This document shows positions 5,202 to 12,311 of a stretch of DNA of 64,000 nucleotides, piece by piece; position 1 is the first letter of the stretch, and each line of letters starts with the position of its first letter. The notes beneath the pieces are model-generated. The model worked only from the letters and a program-made list of their open reading frames with translations. It did not search any database and was not told the DNA's origin. Position numbers and translations under genes: made by a program. This DNA is from Leptothermofonsia sichuanensis E412 (GTDB lineage Bacteria > Cyanobacteriota > Cyanobacteriia > Leptolyngbyales > Leptolyngbyaceae): positions 4,526,001 to 4,590,000 of the forward strand of contig NZ_CP072600.1 of the NCBI RefSeq assembly GCF_019891175.1, given 5' to 3'.

Positions 5202-8200
5202 ATGAATGCTGTCGAAATCGAAGAAGCTGTTTCTCGATTAGCCGAATCCCCGTTTGACCCGGCAGAGTTTCCCTTCGCGTTTCTGGAAGCCTTTGGCAAC
5301 AAGGCAACGACGATCAAACGGTTGAGAAGTCAGGGCAAAGATTCGACGAACCAGTCGGATTTAGGGGGGGTGCTCCAGCGCCATAACATTCACCTCAAGG
5401 TTTGTGTTGTGGGCGAAGTCAGCGCCACCCTGAGTGCCCTGCGAGAGAGTCCGGCAACCGCCCGCCACAAGGTGAAGTTCATTCTGGCCACAGACGGCAT
5501 CAGCTTTGAGGCAGAGAATTTGGTAGATGGGGAAACCGTTGCCTGCGACTATCCCAGTTTTGCTGACCATTTTGGCTTTTTCTTGCCGTTGGCGGGGATC
5601 ACGACCGTCAAGCAGATTCGGGAGAATGCCTTTGACATTAAGGCGACGGGGCGGCTGAATCGGCTCTATGTGGAGCTGTTGAAGGAAAATCCAGATTGGG
5701 AGCAGCGACCAGAAGAGTTTAACCATTTTATGGCGCGGTTGATCTTCTGCTTTTTTGCGGAGGATACGAATATTTTTCCCGCGACTGCCAAGGGTGAAGG
5801 GTTGTTTACGAGTACGATCGCCCAGATGAGTGCGGGGGATGCCTCAAATACCCATGAGGTACTGGCGGAGATTTTCCGAGCGATGGCGACACCGTTGCCG
5901 CAACGACAAGCGGCAGGGATTCGCCGGTGGGCAGAGGGGTTTCCCTATGTGAATGGGGGGTTGTTTGACCCTCATCCCCTAACCCCTTCTCCCAATTCCC
6001 CTCATCCCCTAACCCCTTCTCCCAAAGAGGGAGAAGGGGGATCGGCCTCTATTTCTCCCCTCTCCCCCCCTGGGAGAGGGGCCGGGGGTGAGGGCGAATA
6101 CTGGGAAATTTCCCCTGCCCTGAAAAAGAAGATGACTGAGGTTGCCCGTCAGTTTCGCAAAAAGCCAACCCCCAGTGAAGATATCCTCTGGCAAGCCCTA
6201 CGTGGAAGGAAGCTAGAAGGGCGAAAATTCAGACGGCAGCAACCAATTGGAGCGTTCGTTGTCGATTTTTTCTGTGGTGCGGAACGGTTGATTGTGGAAG
6301 TGGATGGGGGTGTGCATGACTCCCAGCAGGAAGCAGATCAACAACGGCAAGAGTTGCTGGAATCACTGGGGTTAAGGGTGGTTCGTATCCGTAGTGAGTT
6401 GGTGGAAGGGGATATAGAGGAAGCATTATCGATAATTCGGCAAGCGTTTGGCCCTCATCCCCTAACCCCTTCTCCCAAGTCGGGAGAAGGGGAACCGGAC
6501 TCTATTTCTCCCCTCTCCCCCCCTGGGAGAGGGGCCGGGGGTGAGGGCCAAGTCCCTCGCTTCAGCAAAATCGCCCGTTCCTACCTGCTCCACATCGGCA
6601 ACCTGGACTGGAAACAGATCAACCCGGATATTTTCGGCTCCATGATCCAGGCCATTGCCGAAGACGAAGAGCGCGGTGCGTTGGGAATGCACTATACCAG
6701 CGTGCCCAACATCCTCAAGGTGTTGAACCCGCTATTTCTGGACGATCTGCGTGCCCAACTCGCAGAAGCGGGCGACAATCCCCGTAAGCTGTTGAACCTG
6801 CGCAAGCGCTTGGCCCGGATTCGCGTCTTTGACCCGGCCTGTGGGTCAGGCAACTTTTTGGTGATTGCCTACAAGGAAATGCGGGCCATTGAAGCCGAAA
6901 TCAACCGCCGCCGGGGAGAACCAGATCGCCGTTCCGAGATTCCCCTCACCAACTTTCGCGGCATCGAGATTCGCCACTTTGCCTGCGAAATTGCCCGCTT
7001 AGCCTTGATTATTGCCGAGTATCAGTGTGATGTGCTCTACCGGGGGCAGCGGCTTGCCTTGGCGGAGTTTTTGCCCCTGAAGAACGAGAACTGGATTACC
7101 TGTGGCAATGCCCTGCGGTTGGATTGGTTGAGCTTGTGTCCACCCACGGGGACGGCGGTGAAGCTGGTCGCGGAGGATTTGTTTAGTACACCCCTAGAGC
7201 AGACGGAGATTGAGTTTGAAAACGAAGGCGGTGAAACCTATCTCTGCGGCAATCCACCGTACTTGGGTTCGACCTGGCAATCGGCAGAGCAAAAGGATGA
7301 TTTGAGGCTGGTATTTGGGGGACGGACGAAAACCTGGAAGTCGCTGGATTATGTGGCCGGTTGGTTCATGAAGGCGGCGGATTACGGCACCCAGACCCCC
7401 TCCGCAGCGGCATTTGTAGCGACCAACTCGATTTGTCAGGGGCAGCAGGTACCGATTTTGTGGCCGTTGATTTTTGCCACAGGCCATGAGATTGCCTTTG
7501 CCCATACCAGCTTTAAGTGGGCGAATCTGGCCAGTCACAATGCCGGGGTAACAGTGGTGATTGTGGGCATCTCGAATCACGCCGGGAAAGTACGGCGGTT
7601 GTTTGCGGTGGAAGCGACTGGGGAAACGGTTGTTAAGGAAGTTGAGACTATCAATGCGTATTTGGTGGCTGGAGCTAATGTGATCGTGGAAAAAGCTTCT
7701 AGACCATTAGCTGGTATTGCTGTAATGGATTTTGGTAGCAAACCTGTTGATGGCGGAAATCTGTTTCTGAATTTTTCTGAAAAGCAGCAACTTATTGTTA
7801 GTGATGAAAGTTCTTCAAGATTTGTTAGACCGTACTCAAATTCTGAAGAATTTATCAATGGGAAGCAAAGATTTTGTCTATGGATTGAAGACGCAGATTT
7901 AAAGGATGCACAAGAAGTTCAGGAAATATCGAAGAGGCTAGCAAATGTTGCTAGTATGCGGAAATCAAGCAAAAAATCTCAGACAAATGCTAGTGCAGTT
8001 TTTCCTCATCGTTTCGGGGAAGCTCGTCATCGAAGTAGTAAATATACACTTGTAATTCCACGTGTGAGTTCGGAGAATCGTGATTACCTTCCAGTTGGAC
8101 TTGTGCAAGGCGGGACAATCATCGGCGATCGCAACTTTGCCCTCTACGATGCCCCCCTCTGGAACATGGCGCTGATCGCCTCCCGCCTCCACTGGGTCTG

Positions 8201-8561
8201 GATCGGCACCGTCTGCGTCCGCATGAGAACCGATTTCTCCTACTCCAACACCCTGGGCTGGAACACCTTCCCCGTGCCCACCCTCACGGAGCAAAACAAA
8301 GCCGACCTCACCCGCTGTGCCGAAGACATCCTGCTCGCCCGCGAACACTACTTCCCCGCCACCATTGCCGAAATGTACGACCCAGCCCGCATGGATACCG
8401 AGTTTCCCCTCGTGCGGGAAGCCCATGAACGCAATGACGAAACCCTAGAGCGTATCTACATCGGGCGGCGGTTCAAAAACGATACAGAACGACTAGAGAA
8501 GTTATTTGAGATGTATGTCAAGATGACCAGCCAGAAGACATCGTCGAAAAAGAAAAAATGA
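5202..8561 (+). CDS. MmeI-like adenine DNA methyltransferase with in-frame DUF559 nuclease insertion
   Basis: 1119 residues. SAM-binding motif I DPACGSGNF begins at residue 544 and catalytic motif IV NPPY is at 684-687, so this is an N6-adenine methyltransferase of the MmeI-like class I type. Residues 1-255 match the N-terminal region of such enzymes, 450-530 continue the helical spacer (HIGNLDWKQINPDIFGSM), and 880-1119 are the target-recognition and C-terminal parts. Between NGGLFD (about 255) and VPRFSKIARS (about 450), roughly 194 residues are inserted in frame: a repeat, a DUF559 nuclease domain, then a second repeat. Without it the length would be about 925 residues, normal for the family. 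I see no nuclease motif in its own N-terminus. Regions around 7.62-8.10 kb are more AT-rich than the flanks, suggesting a recombined recognition domain. Confidence 0.85.
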   Translation: MNAVEIEEAVSRLAESPFDPAEFPFAFLEAFGNKATTIKRLRSQGKDSTNQSDLGGVLQRHNIHLKVCVVGEVSATLSALRESPATARHKVKFILATDGISFEAENLVDGETVACDYPSFADHFGFFLPLAGITTVKQIRENAFDIKATGRLNRLYVELLKENPDWEQRPEEFNHFMARLIFCFFAEDTNIFPATAKGEGLFTSTIAQMSAGDASNTHEVLAEIFRAMATPLPQRQAAGIRRWAEGFPYVNGGLFDPHPLTPSPNSPHPLTPSPKEGEGGSASISPLSPPGRGAGGEGEYWEISPALKKKMTEVARQFRKKPTPSEDILWQALRGRKLEGRKFRRQQPIGAFVVDFFCGAERLIVEVDGGVHDSQQEADQQRQELLESLGLRVVRIRSELVEGDIEEALSIIRQAFGPHPLTPSPKSGEGEPDSISPLSPPGRGAGGEGQVPRFSKIARSYLLHIGNLDWKQINPDIFGSMIQAIAEDEERGALGMHYTSVPNILKVLNPLFLDDLRAQLAEAGDNPRKLLNLRKRLARIRVFDPACGSGNFLVIAYKEMRAIEAEINRRRGEPDRRSEIPLTNFRGIEIRHFACEIARLALIIAEYQCDVLYRGQRLALAEFLPLKNENWITCGNALRLDWLSLCPPTGTAVKLVAEDLFSTPLEQTEIEFENEGGETYLCGNPPYLGSTWQSAEQKDDLRLVFGGRTKTWKSLDYVAGWFMKAADYGTQTPSAAAFVATNSICQGQQVPILWPLIFATGHEIAFAHTSFKWANLASHNAGVTVVIVGISNHAGKVRRLFAVEATGETVVKEVETINAYLVAGANVIVEKASRPLAGIAVMDFGSKPVDGGNLFLNFSEKQQLIVSDESSSRFVRPYSNSEEFINGKQRFCLWIEDADLKDAQEVQEISKRLANVASMRKSSKKSQTNASAVFPHRFGEARHRSSKYTLVIPRVSSENRDYLPVGLVQGGTIIGDRNFALYDAPLWNMALIASRLHWVWIGTVCVRMRTDFSYSNTLGWNTFPVPTLTEQNKADLTRCAEDILLAREHYFPATIAEMYDPARMDTEFPLVREAHERNDETLERIYIGRRFKNDTERLEKLFEMYVKMTSQKTSSKKKK
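5969..6094. repeat. Family F palindromic repeat, copy 1, translated in frame
   Basis: It starts CCCTCATCCCCTAACCCC and ends CCGGGGGTGAGGG, so the outer ends are inverted, and it contains two inner hairpins (CCCCTTCTCCC/GGGAGAAGGGG and CCCCTCTCC/GGGAGAGGGG). Its first 30 bp are duplicated in tandem, adding exactly ten codons. Read in the host frame it gives PHPLTPSP, GEG and SPLSPPGRGAGGEG without a stop. Other copies are at 6452, 8674 (half) and 9274. Confidence 0.85.
6095..6451 (+). mobile_element. DUF559 (Vsr-fold) nuclease cassette inside the methyltransferase
   Basis: The segment encodes about 118 residues (299-416 of the host protein) and contains its own ATG at 6132, the likely start of an ancestral free-standing gene. 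The DUF559 signatures are PTPSEDILWQALRGR, RKFRRQQPIGAFVVDFF and LIVEVDGGVHD, with the Asp of VDFF and the Glu of VEVD as likely metal ligands of the PD-(D/E)XK-like site. All motif residues look intact. It is bracketed by two same-orientation family F repeats, so repeat plus gene plus repeat may have entered as one unit. Confidence 0.75.
6452..6547. repeat. Family F palindromic repeat, copy 2, translated in frame
   Basis: Same orientation and nearly the same sequence as copy 1: CCCTCATCCCC at the left, hairpin TTCTCCC/GGGAGAAG, then CCCCTCTCCC/GGGAGAGGGG, and GGGGGTGAGGG at the right. It encodes PHPLTPSP, GEGE and SPLSPPGRGAGGEG, after which the methyltransferase sequence resumes at VPRFSK. 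Direct-repeat flanking would allow precise excision by recombination. Confidence 0.85.
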
Positions 8562-9148: not shown

Positions 9149-9167
9149 CCCCTCATCAGCAGATTGC

Positions 9168-9271
9168 TTCTACCCTCACTGAGCAAAACCAAGCCGACCC
9201 CACCCGCTGCACCGAAGACATTCTCCTGGCTCGCGAACACGAATTCCCCGCCAACCTTGCCGAGATGCAAC
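9168..9271 (+). pseudogene. Duplicated fragment of a methyltransferase C-terminus
   Basis: About 104 bp encode TLTEQNQADPTRCTEDILL and LAREHEFPANLAEM, closely matching the host methyltransferase at 8273-8374 (TLTEQNKADLTRCAEDILL, LAREHYFPATIAEM). The two differ at scattered third and first codon positions, so this is a diverged paralogue's remnant rather than a recent copy. No start or motif I/IV is associated. It ends at a family F repeat. Confidence 0.7.
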
Positions 9272-9273
9272 AG

Positions 9274-9366
9274 CCCTCATCCCCCAGCCCCTTCTCCCAG
9301 GCCGGGAGAAGGGGAGCCAGATTACAAGTCCCTCTTCCAGCTTGGGAAAGGGATTTAGGGTGAGGG
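9274..9366. repeat. Family F palindromic repeat, copy 4 (diverged)
   Basis: CCCTCATCCCCCAGCCCCTT on the left, hairpin TTCTCCC/GGGAGAAG, a diverged second half TTCCAGCTTGGGAA, and TTAGGGTGAGGG on the right. It borders the methyltransferase fragment. With copy 3 it brackets the MNT/HEPN remnant much as copies 1 and 2 bracket the DUF559 domain. Confidence 0.75.
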
Positions 9367-10101: not shown

Positions 10102-11823
10102 ATGAGCAACCCGATCGCAATCCCCGCCGTTTCCGTCACCTACGCCCAAGACGGCACCTCCACCCAAGCCAACGCCCTGGGGATGCGCCCCATGCAGGAA
10201 CGCGCCTACCAAAAGCGCGGTGAACAATATCTCCTGATCAAATCACCCCCCGCCTCCGGCAAAAGTCGGGCACTGATGTTCATCGCTCTGGATAAGCTGG
10301 AAAACCAGGGTCTCAAACAGGCGATCATTGTGGTGCCCGAAAAATCGATCGGCGCTAGCTTTCACAACGAACCCCTGAGCAAGTATGGCTTTTGGGCCGA
10401 TTGGGTGGTCGAACCCCGCTGGAACCTCTGCGATGCTCCCGGCGGCGATAACGGCGGTAAAGTCGATGCGGTGAAAAAATTCCTAGAAAGCGATGCCAAG
10501 GTGCTGGTCTGCACCCATGCCACCTTTCGCTTTGCCGTGGATCGGTTTGGGGTAGAGGTGTTGGACGATCGCCTGATCGCCGTCGATGAATTCCACCATG
10601 TTTCCGCCAACCCTGATAACAAGCTCGGCGATCATATCCGCCAACTCATGGCCCGCGACAAAACCCACATCGTCGCCATGACGGGTTCCTACTTCCGGGG
10701 CGATGCGGTCGCCGTGCTGCACCCCGATGACGAAGCCCGCTTTGAAACCGTTACCTACACCTACTACGAACAACTCAACGGCTACCAATACCTGAAGCAA
10801 CTCGACATCGGCTACTACTTCTACGCTGGTCGCTACAGCGACGAAATCACGCAGGTGCTCAACCCCAACGAGAAAACCATTCTGCACATTCCCAACGTCA
10901 ACTCCCGCGAAAGCACCAAAGACAAAATCCGTGAAGTCGAACATATTATCGAAGCACTGGGGGAATGGCAGGGTACCGACTCCCAAACGGGATTTCAACT
11001 CGTCAAAACGGCTGATGGTAAGCTACTCAAAATTGCCGATCTAGTGGACGATGACCCCAGCAAGCGCGATAAAGTCGTTGCCGCCCTCAAAGACCCCGCC
11101 CACAAACACAACCGCGACCATGTGGATATCATCATCGCCCTGGGTATGGCCAAGGAAGGCTTCGACTGGATCTGGTGTGAACACGCCCTCACCGTGGGCT
11201 ACCGCTCCAGCCTGACGGAAATTATCCAAATCATCGGACGCGCCACCCGCGATGCCCCCGGCAAAACCCGCGCCCGCTTCACCAACTTGATCGCCGAACC
11301 CGATGCCAGCGAGGAAGCCGTGACCGAGGCGGTGAATGATACCCTCAAGGCGATCGCCGCCAGCCTGCTGATGGAACAAGTCCTCGCCCCCCGCTTTGAA
11401 TTCAAACCCAAGCGCCCCGATAATCAGCCCACTCCCGGCTTTGACTACGGCGAGGGCGGCTACGATGCAAACAAATGCAACGTCGGGGTAAATCCTGAGA
11501 CGGGGCAGATTCAGATTGAAATTAAGGGACTTGCAGAACCCAAGAGTCCAGAAGCGACCCGCATCTGTCGCGAAGACTTGACCGAACTGGTGACCGCGTT
11601 TGTCCAAGACAAGCCCGCCCTCGAACGGGGCCTCTTCGACGAAGAACTGGTCCCTGAAGAACTAACCCAAGTCCGGATGGGCAAAATCGTCAAAGAGAAA
11701 TTCCCAAATTTAGATGCAGAAGATCAAGAAGCGGTGCGTCAACATGCGATCGCCACCCTCAACCTGGTGCAACAGGCTAAAAAAGAAGTGATTTACTGCT
11801 GCGATCACTCCAGCGGGCATTGA
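10102..11823 (+). CDS. Superfamily 2 DEAD/DEAH-type helicase, C-terminally truncated
   Basis: 573 residues. Motif I is PASGKSR (50-56), motif II DEFHH (162-166), motif III TGS, and motif VI QIIGRATR (from 376). This is a complete SF2 ATPase core; a C-terminal region with RMGKIVKEKFP follows. The last ten residues after QQAKKEV (IYCCDHSSGH) look foreign, and the next frame begins in the middle of a GIY-YIG protein. A deletion therefore probably removed the helicase C-terminus. Its place next to an adenine methyltransferase suggests ATP-driven DNA translocation in a restriction-type system (inference). Confidence 0.85.
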   Translation: MSNPIAIPAVSVTYAQDGTSTQANALGMRPMQERAYQKRGEQYLLIKSPPASGKSRALMFIALDKLENQGLKQAIIVVPEKSIGASFHNEPLSKYGFWADWVVEPRWNLCDAPGGDNGGKVDAVKKFLESDAKVLVCTHATFRFAVDRFGVEVLDDRLIAVDEFHHVSANPDNKLGDHIRQLMARDKTHIVAMTGSYFRGDAVAVLHPDDEARFETVTYTYYEQLNGYQYLKQLDIGYYFYAGRYSDEITQVLNPNEKTILHIPNVNSRESTKDKIREVEHIIEALGEWQGTDSQTGFQLVKTADGKLLKIADLVDDDPSKRDKVVAALKDPAHKHNRDHVDIIIALGMAKEGFDWIWCEHALTVGYRSSLTEIIQIIGRATRDAPGKTRARFTNLIAEPDASEEAVTEAVNDTLKAIAASLLMEQVLAPRFEFKPKRPDNQPTPGFDYGEGGYDANKCNVGVNPETGQIQIEIKGLAEPKSPEATRICREDLTELVTAFVQDKPALERGLFDEELVPEELTQVRMGKIVKEKFPNLDAEDQEAVRQHAIATLNLVQQAKKEVIYCCDHSSGH

Positions 11824-12311
11824 ACAAAGACAAAACCAGCCGCCGTATTACCAAACCTGAAACAGATTTCGGACCCCTATTTTCGCATGTTGAAGCAGAA
11901 GATGACTTGCCGACTGGCTATATTTACGTACTCAGAAGCCAATCTGATGATCCCTTCATTACCGGGAATCGGTCAGTCATTCATAAAATCGGTGTAACAG
12001 GTGGCGATGTCAAAACCCGAATTGCGAATGCCAAGCAAGACCCAACCTATCTGCTTGCAGACGTGGAAATCGTCGCAACCTTCAAACTGGCAAATATCAA
12101 TCGAAAAAAACTTGAGACAGTTCTTCACAATTTTTTTGACCATACTCGATTAGATGTCCAGTTGCAGGATCGTTTTGGCATCGCCGTAAAACCCAGAGAA
12201 TGGTTTCTGGTTCCACTAGAGGCAATTGAGGAGGCGATTGAAAAAGTTAAGGAAGGAACAATCGACCAATTTCGATACGATCCGCAATCAGCAAGTCTGA
12301 CACGCTTGTAA
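11820..12311 (+). CDS. GIY-YIG / T5orf172-like nuclease, N-terminally truncated
   Basis: 163 residues from a TTG overlapping the helicase stop (ATTGA), which allows translational coupling. The nuclease core is present: TGYIYVLRS (GIY strand), IHKIGVTGG (YIG-like strand), RIANAK (Arg) and a Glu-containing REWFLVPLEAIEEA. Related proteins I know are much longer, with roughly 200 or more residues before this domain, and carry KDxxGRRITEP-like sequence just where this frame begins (NKDKTSRRITKPE). The start is thus probably a deletion scar. The catalytic part looks intact. Nuclease activity is inferred from family. Confidence 0.75.
   Translation: MNKDKTSRRITKPETDFGPLFSHVEAEDDLPTGYIYVLRSQSDDPFITGNRSVIHKIGVTGGDVKTRIANAKQDPTYLLADVEIVATFKLANINRKKLETVLHNFFDHTRLDVQLQDRFGIAVKPREWFLVPLEAIEEAIEKVKEGTIDQFRYDPQSASLTRL

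Follow-up and report, generated by a model that had tools for sequence, protein, structure and literature searches.

The question raised by this locus is how a DNA methyltransferase gene came to contain, in frame and between two copies of a palindromic repeat, a complete nuclease domain. The gene lies in a stretch of 64,000 nucleotides (nt) from the cyanobacterium Leptothermofonsia sichuanensis E412 (the window), at positions 4,526,001-4,590,000 of a genome assembled as one contig of 6.43 Mb. The features concerned are as follows (window coordinates).

5202..8561, + strand: host gene, an MmeI-like class I SAM-dependent DNA methyltransferase (1119 aa with the insert; Pfam MmeI series)
~5969..5998, + strand: partial extra repeat copy, left end only, before the left repeat (from comparison of the repeat family)
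5999..6098, + strand: left palindromic repeat, translated as SPHPLTPSPKEGEGGSASISPLSPPGRGAGGEG
6099..6449, + strand: DUF559 (Vsr-like) nuclease domain (PF04480, E 1.6e-30)
6452..6551, + strand: right palindromic repeat, translated as GPHPLTPSPKSGEGEPDSISPLSPPGRGAGGEG, 93% identical to the left copy
9274..9366, + strand: further dispersed repeat copy downstream of the host gene (genome match 9274-9314; palindrome to 9366 by reading, L030)

The reading frame at 5202-8561 has no stop over its 1119 codons, insert included. Its product comprises MmeI_N (residues 1-161), MmeI_hel (172-255), DUF559 (310-414), MmeI_Mtase (521-801), MmeI_TRD (824-1028), and MmeI_C (1031-1110) domains (Pfam) and is matched by the PADLOC model REase_MTase_IIG (E 9.8e-272); an uninserted homolog (L035) matches MmeI itself (5HR4, E 6.7e-135). 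The domain series and the match to MmeI place the host among the MmeI-like methyltransferases.

A sequence-only reading of this DNA had noted about 194 extra residues between the motifs NGGLFD and VPRFSKIARS. The segment from NGGLF to VPRFSK is 614 nt long in the window versus 44 nt in the five uninserted homologs measured, an excess of 570 nt (190 codons, close to that estimate) that is in frame and stop-free. The described order was borne out as well: a palindromic repeat, a complete DUF559 domain, and a second repeat in the same orientation, the two copies being 100 nt each, 93% identical, and spaced 453 nt apart in an open frame. Both are strong palindromes (single-strand DNA fold z of -4.33 on the left and -4.36 on the right), with 0 of 200 and 1 of 200 shuffles, respectively, folding as well. 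A short doubling of CCCTCATCC is found in similar form at the same place in four other genomes (G041, G116, G026, and G015). The start codon ascribed to the DUF559 domain is present in the window (KKKMTEVA); no methionine occurs there in a second sequence class, hence it is not a general feature.

With an uninterrupted frame from end to end, the insert would most simply be translated, adding a domain held on flexible linkers that the repeats encode. In an AlphaFold model, pLDDT is mostly above 90 over DUF559 and low over the repeat peptides, as expected of flexible linkers; two of the checks proposed in the sequence-only reading, alignment with uninserted homologs and structure prediction, gave 570 extra nt and a confident model of the nuclease. 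A Pfam scan of the whole chain (E 0.001) found no Hint or intein family, and the insert ends in repeats where an intein would have the halves of its splicing domain; the scan is profile-based and was also blank for a decayed stretch elsewhere in the same genome that by eye is intein-like.

The nuclease belongs to the DUF559 family (PF04480, 105.6 bits versus a cut-off of 20.6). Its model matches in fold 3HRL (Z 16.3), the catalytic domain of the homing endonuclease I-Bth0305I (Z 12.9), and Vsr (Z 10.0, a value equaled by Toxoplasma mitoribosomal proteins at Z 9.8-10.3); a profile search likewise matched 3HRL (E 2.6e-32) and, more weakly, I-Bth0305I (E 0.0029). Residues E76, D105, E116, D118, H122, and D129 do not vary among 43 sequences, comprising the window and 42 picked from 80 loci, and belong to an invariant core of E, W, F, Q, D, F, L, E, D, G, H, D, R, and R. 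The common core is also invariant in 18 cyanobacterial cassettes, with the row for L158 cut at shifted coordinates. Fold and conserved acidic and histidine residues together identify a Vsr/EDxHD-type nuclease; the catalytic role among the invariant residues is presumed from Vsr. Pairwise dN/dS in three groups ranges from 0.03 to 0.25, with medians of 0.06-0.12 (the class-1 group provided 17 usable pairs out of 28, with dS as high as 3.9). The nuclease is under purifying selection in the three groups tested.

Alleles of the same site were collected by a whole-protein search of 58 related genomes, a wider fetch of loci, and a repeat-peptide search of 59 genomes. At one codon position the MmeI-like gene is empty in seven genomes, carries repeats alone in four, and carries repeats with DUF559 in four, so the site has both empty and occupied alleles, as expected of a homing element. 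The empty site is found in G016, G004, G025, G008, G009, G007, and G045 (the last by adjoining match coordinates only). Repeats alone comprise a single in-frame copy in G065 (L163, 137 nt), a single copy after which the frame ends in G015, two copies in G026 (308 nt), and, in G043, out-of-frame remnants (189 nt) within a gene that has decayed. The arrangement repeat-DUF559-repeat is present in the window's genome (G000, 614 nt), in G116 (L148, 626 nt), and in G041, where the contig ends inside the right repeat; the single-contig genome G083 (L158) has repeat-DUF559-repeat-repeat-repeat (827 nt). The segment lengths 44, 137, 308, 614, 626, and 827 nt are equal modulo 3, the 189 nt of G043 being the exception, and the alleles are in frame in all but that one decayed gene. 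No target-site duplication was established at the alleles compared. The empty site of G009 carries GGGTGAGGGTCATGT, which resembles the right end of the G065 repeat and is perhaps a footprint.

A comparable series occurs in an unrelated N6_N4 DNA methylase. Two genomes, G042 and the window's own, have a single in-frame repeat and no nuclease in this gene, which in the window's genome is disrupted at another point; G214 and G023 have repeat-DUF559-repeat at that position. The allele series of the two genes therefore indicate that the repeat marks the place where the nuclease is acquired or lost; parsimony favors the order of repeat first, nuclease later. The survey of cyanobacterial genomes that the sequence-only reading had called for yielded both repeat-flanked DUF559 genes and empty sites, and the outcome that would have refuted it, a repeat-free insertion shared by all close homologs, was not observed. 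Its suggestion of a nuclease gene that can shift between paired repeats and spare the host gene gains support in outline, because the site may be empty, hold repeats only, or hold repeats with DUF559, and because similar cassettes occur in unrelated genes; movement itself is inferred from these patterns.

The association of repeats with embedded DUF559 domains was measured against control windows. Direct repeats bracket 45 of 60 embedded cyanobacterial hits, and inverted repeats 50 of 60, compared with 8/103 and 3/103 controls (gap 2.2 kb away); these counts include a second DUF559-like stretch at one locus (L131:1661-1915) and a misplaced DUF559 position for L158, and the 60 hits overlap with, and differ as a set from, the 60 clustered hosts described below. 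Among 55 loci from the class of Gillisia, 31 have repeats of either kind (inverted in 29, direct in 5), versus 3/107 controls (inverted 0/107, direct 3/107). The inverted flanks in this class look as if the nuclease lay inside one palindrome. Among the best 80 of 560 loci from a scan of named genomes, 44 of 75 usable loci have repeats of either kind (controls 2/137), and repeats bracket DUF559 at 28 of 44 viral loci (controls 8/85). No left-right repeat was detected at 24/55 loci in the class of Gillisia, 31/75 named-genome loci, and 3/60 cyanobacterial hits.

PF04480 is present in 190 of 291 genomes of the window's class (profile search), and the matches listed are mainly free-standing frames of ~120-210 aa together with long frames of up to 1817 aa. 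Frames of at least ~350 aa, chosen by eye among the matches listed and joined by loci known earlier, gave 60 embedded hosts in 12 BLAST clusters. A restriction-modification, methylase, or DUF1156 domain was found by Pfam in 22 of 24 scanned hosts (19 without DUF1156), all clusters being sampled; we count DUF1156 as a methylase on the strength of a DPPY motif seen by eye, the Pfam label being "unknown function." The domains include MmeI, Eco57I, N6_N4 methylase, type ISP, HsdR, and HsdS. The two hosts with none of them are L133, which clusters with MmeI-type proteins, and L151, a singleton that by eye resembles the Eco57I host L162. All 60 hosts look like restriction-modification or DNA-methylase genes.

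The repeat itself is dispersed in the window's genome, with at least 40 matches (all 40 candidates scored of 69; one place counts on both strands). Lone in-frame repeats were found in stop-free frames of at least 300 aa in 29 of 88 rows, the repeat-peptide query favoring copies open in the window's frame. Their hosts are restriction-modification genes or associated SNF2/PLD helicase genes in 28 of 29 cases, several of them (L163, L177, L186, and L350 among them) placed by similarity or by eye; the last (L349) is uncertain. Among 30 own-genome matches checked in six frames, in-frame copies besides that in the window gene lie in a type III Res-like gene (two copies; ResIII) and an Eco57I methylase. 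One clear exception to restriction genes in this genome is a 39-nt piece of the repeat in an apparent cysteine desulfurase (by eye); another match falls in a 169-aa frame that looks spurious. The repeats are thus palindromic, dispersed, and in frame in unrelated genes, the traits that define elements of the Rickettsia palindromic type.

The host range is wider outside the cyanobacteria. The class of Gillisia (Gillisia mitskevichiae), which we take to be Bacteroidia in GTDB (Flavobacteriia at NCBI), has PF04480 in 124 of 247 genomes. The 55 loci studied are frames of at least ~600 aa chosen by eye among the matches listed, two earlier loci being left out. Their hosts are LeuRS (23), MetH (6), Acs (4), methylmalonyl-CoA mutase (3), RecJ (3), SpoIIE-type proteins (3, one by eye), RecG (2, one by eye), MutS (2), IleRS (1), PurL (1), a UvrD-type protein (1), and restriction-modification proteins (5), with no assignment for one. 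Hosts other than restriction-modification genes, mostly housekeeping enzymes, thus make up 49 of 55, and after this survey a reading limited to restriction-modification hosts was dropped. LeuRS carries the insert at either of two sites (13 and 10 of 23), and where the pattern is legible the other site is empty, with 24 residues (5 rows) or 19-21 residues (3 rows); in one LeuRS (L446) the second site holds repeats only. Long-frame hosts among the best 80 of 560 named-genome loci include LeuRS, IleRS, MetH, UvrA, PurL, DegT, and adenine deaminase, as well as HsdR, HsdM, type ISP, and MmeI, with one HsdR in an archaeal MAG.

Taken together, these observations favor, with a probability of about 0.6, the reading that the insert is a copy of a widespread, mostly selfish in-frame cassette, translated and unspliced, in which a DUF559 nuclease is carried on palindromic repeats and aids its own spread. 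This reading is preferred because the common denominator of the hosts is tolerance of a flexible insert, in frame and free of stops, in a loop, and not restriction. A palindromic repeat would first enter a loop and, being readable through, be tolerated; the nuclease cassette could then enter or leave at the repeat via recombination between repeats. Such recombination would probably begin with a break made by DUF559 at or near the palindrome, in the manner of a homing endonuclease, and repair would copy the cassette into the site; cutting of the palindrome or the empty site and copying by repair are inferred from the fold, the conservation, and the alleles. The host would tolerate the insert since it is in frame and in a loop and, unlike an intein, stays in.

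Comparison of cassettes suggests a switch of host between the MmeI and N6_N4 genes. DNA identity of DUF559 is 75-82% between four MmeI hosts and two N6_N4 hosts and 78-88% among the MmeI hosts; same-host cassettes are overall somewhat more alike than cross-host ones. In the cassette tree the MmeI and N6_N4 cassettes are joined (92/95), apart from those of PglX-like hosts, and the N6_N4 rows are nested among the MmeI rows (81/87). A single MmeI cassette clade was not rejected by the AU test (p 0.093; 0.304 with a chimera included), values that fall short of significance as formal proof of the switch. A swap of gene halves in L147 (N-half 94% to L146, C-half 67% to the window) was considered as proof of recombination and set aside; no second match to the MmeI N-half occurs in its genome (G237), but L147 is probably an assembly join, because the missing C-half of the other parent starts at base 9 of contig C120.

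According to the strongest rival explanation, which we consider unlikely, the repeats spread by other machinery, and DUF559 is caught between them and moved by ordinary recombination and host-gene transfer, with no role for the nuclease in mobility. Repeats do outnumber DUF559 in the window's genome (at least 40 matches versus 2), solo in-frame copies are common, and repeats occur at the same site without the nuclease (in tandem in G026) and as extra copies after the cassette in G083. Against this, repeats (direct or inverted) bracket DUF559 in many phyla at frequencies far above controls, and the active-site-type residues are invariant in the aligned sequences with low dN/dS, a degree of constraint beyond that required of a passenger, unless the nuclease serves the host.

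A second rival supposes that methyltransferases poor in nuclease function become single-chain restriction enzymes on gaining an in-frame DUF559, with phage defense as the selected benefit and the repeats as mere linkers. The restriction-modification or DNA-methylase appearance of the embedded cyanobacterial hosts favors it, as do the conservation of the nuclease and, by eye, a D..HLK sequence in the window's family at the position of D-EXK, presumably the catalytic motif of MmeI (the MmeI alignment starts after this region). The sequence-only reading had taken the gain of a nuclease by a methyltransferase to be the point of the insert. This now appears too narrow, because cassettes also occur in HsdR, type ISP, HsdS, LeuRS, MetH, Acs, RecJ, and MutS. 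HsdR hosts keep their own N-terminal HSDR_N domain (Pfam), type ISP enzymes are nucleases, and HsdS is a specificity subunit; in hosts such as LeuRS, MetH, and Acs, a gained restriction activity makes little sense. The 49 of 55 hosts in the class of Gillisia that lie outside restriction-modification, together with insertion points that vary between and within host families, make this explanation quite doubtful. Blind selfish insertion alone does not explain the strong restriction-modification bias in cyanobacteria, lone repeats included; that bias may reflect the tolerance of these genes combined with their horizontal travel, or a local use of the nuclease. Embedded cases were chosen by their open frames, and out-of-frame insertions are therefore under-counted.

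Very improbable is an old domain fusion inherited with the host genes, to which repeats were added later and in which nothing moves. Same-site cassettes do recur in related hosts (in seven loci of a second MmeI subfamily and in type ISP genes), so much of the distribution is due to inheritance or whole-gene transfer, and the unrejected single MmeI clade agrees with this; yet the series of empty and repeat-only alleles at the same site, the similar cassettes in unrelated hosts, and the two separate LeuRS sites disfavor it. An assembly artefact at a repeat is extremely unlikely: repeats do break contigs, as where the G041 gene ends inside its right repeat, and the L147 chimera is probably a repeat join, but an error at the insert, which the sequence-only reading had wished to see excluded, is unlikely because the window's genome is one contig and the same arrangement recurs in the MmeI gene of G041, G116, and G083, the last again a single contig.

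The cassette resembles several known systems in part. Rickettsia palindromic elements (RPEs) have counterparts in Wolbachia. RPEs are ~150-bp palindromes that interrupt unrelated protein genes while keeping the reading frame, and the likeness drawn here is one of description; the passages on them describe no nuclease (PMC10969869), whereas here repeats of ~100 bp bracket a conserved one. Inteins and intron-encoded or free-standing homing endonucleases (EDxHD, I-Bth0305I) share with the cassette the same fold and a nuclease in genes with empty and occupied alleles; in contrast to inteins, no splicing domain was found in the window's chain (Pfam), so that the insert would stay in the protein, and homing here is putative. 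A cyanobacterial genome paper, in its part on inteins, places a DUF559 gene in the EDxHD homing endonuclease family (PMC9403480). Vsr and DUF559 proteins such as 3HRL (NGO0050) and Caulobacter VsrA, which is reported to contain a DUF559 domain and to be Vsr-like (PMC12907096), are of the same family or fold as the insert; they are described as mismatch-repair-type endonucleases and not as in-frame inserts.

Type IIG enzymes such as MmeI, the family of the host, combine methyltransferase, TRD, and nuclease in one chain, and by its architecture the window's protein is a candidate for such one-chain restriction. The nuclease of MmeI is N-terminal; that in the window is of another kind and lies between the helical spacer and the methyltransferase. 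REP elements are dispersed palindromes associated with RAYT transposases, and they and MITEs are, like the present repeats, dispersed palindromes with a candidate mobilizing enzyme; here, unlike there, the enzyme is a PD-(D/E)XK-type nuclease that sits between the repeats, in frame inside other genes.

The joint occurrence of nuclease, palindromes, and unspliced insertion across phyla and hosts is undescribed in the titles or abstract openings listed from the open-licence literature searched. The element combines known kinds, and there is a fair chance that it forms a class of its own. More specifically, and at somewhat short of even odds, it may represent a mobile element of a new class, in which a homing nuclease is inserted in frame, translated within its host and never spliced, with palindromes that serve as both target and harmless linkers. 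Such a class would extend across cyanobacteria, Bacteroidota, Chloroflexota, at least one archaeal MAG, and others, and would occupy even essential proteins such as LeuRS, in which imprecise loss would be lethal.

Known selfish nucleases maintain themselves within genes through self-splicing, at the level of RNA or of protein; if the selfish-cassette reading is correct, being read through would be a third route to persistence. It would account for the scattered occurrence of DUF559 in LeuRS, MetH, or restriction enzymes, and would offer a path for new linkers and domains in proteins to arise from palindromic repeats and a nuclease. The near confinement of the cyanobacterial cases to restriction-modification genes raises the question of why, and the empty, repeat-only, and occupied alleles of one gene offer a ready system for asking whether the nuclease drives the spread.

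The genome of the window contains two DUF559 matches, only one of them besides the window's own, and the second lies inside the gene of an unrelated N6_N4 methylase that also holds a lone in-frame repeat at a later site. This domain and two features near the MmeI-like methyltransferase are located as follows.

G000:C1:643,400-645,300 (L153:3401-5283), outside the window: second DUF559, inside the N6_N4 methylase gene
Window 9166-9366: methyltransferase C-terminus fragment leading into a repeat copy
Window 10102-12311: DEAD/DEAH helicase and another small gene, downstream of the methyltransferase

By eye, the second DUF559 is surrounded by a decayed and frameshifted intein-like stretch (ending ...EICAIHN), within which it occupies the place of a homing endonuclease; Pfam identified no intein family at this stretch.

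Many of the short-frame repeat copies among the matches listed (e.g., in genomes G054, G050, and G042) are interrupted by a stop in the very frame that stays open in copies within genes, a pattern to be expected if read-through acts as a filter on coding copies. DUF559 genes are also found on many short viral contigs (L267-L346); direct or inverted repeats bracket the domain in 28 of the 44 usable viral cases, versus 8 of 85 control windows.

The C-terminal fragment (window 9166-9282) matches methyltransferase residues 1025-1063 at 69%. Several related genomes (G016, G007, G025, and G050) have at least one comparable fragment each, located close to the methyltransferase gene or on a different contig. 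At locus L147 (G237:C81), two methyltransferases are seemingly fused, with the junction passing through the cassette; this chimera is probably an assembly join, although a search of the G237 genome turned up no further match to the MmeI N-half.

The start of the helicase also adjoins the uninserted homologues in loci L035 and L037 and is likewise present in genome G041 (L039); because of this recurrence, the methyltransferase host gene may belong to a more extensive defence locus.
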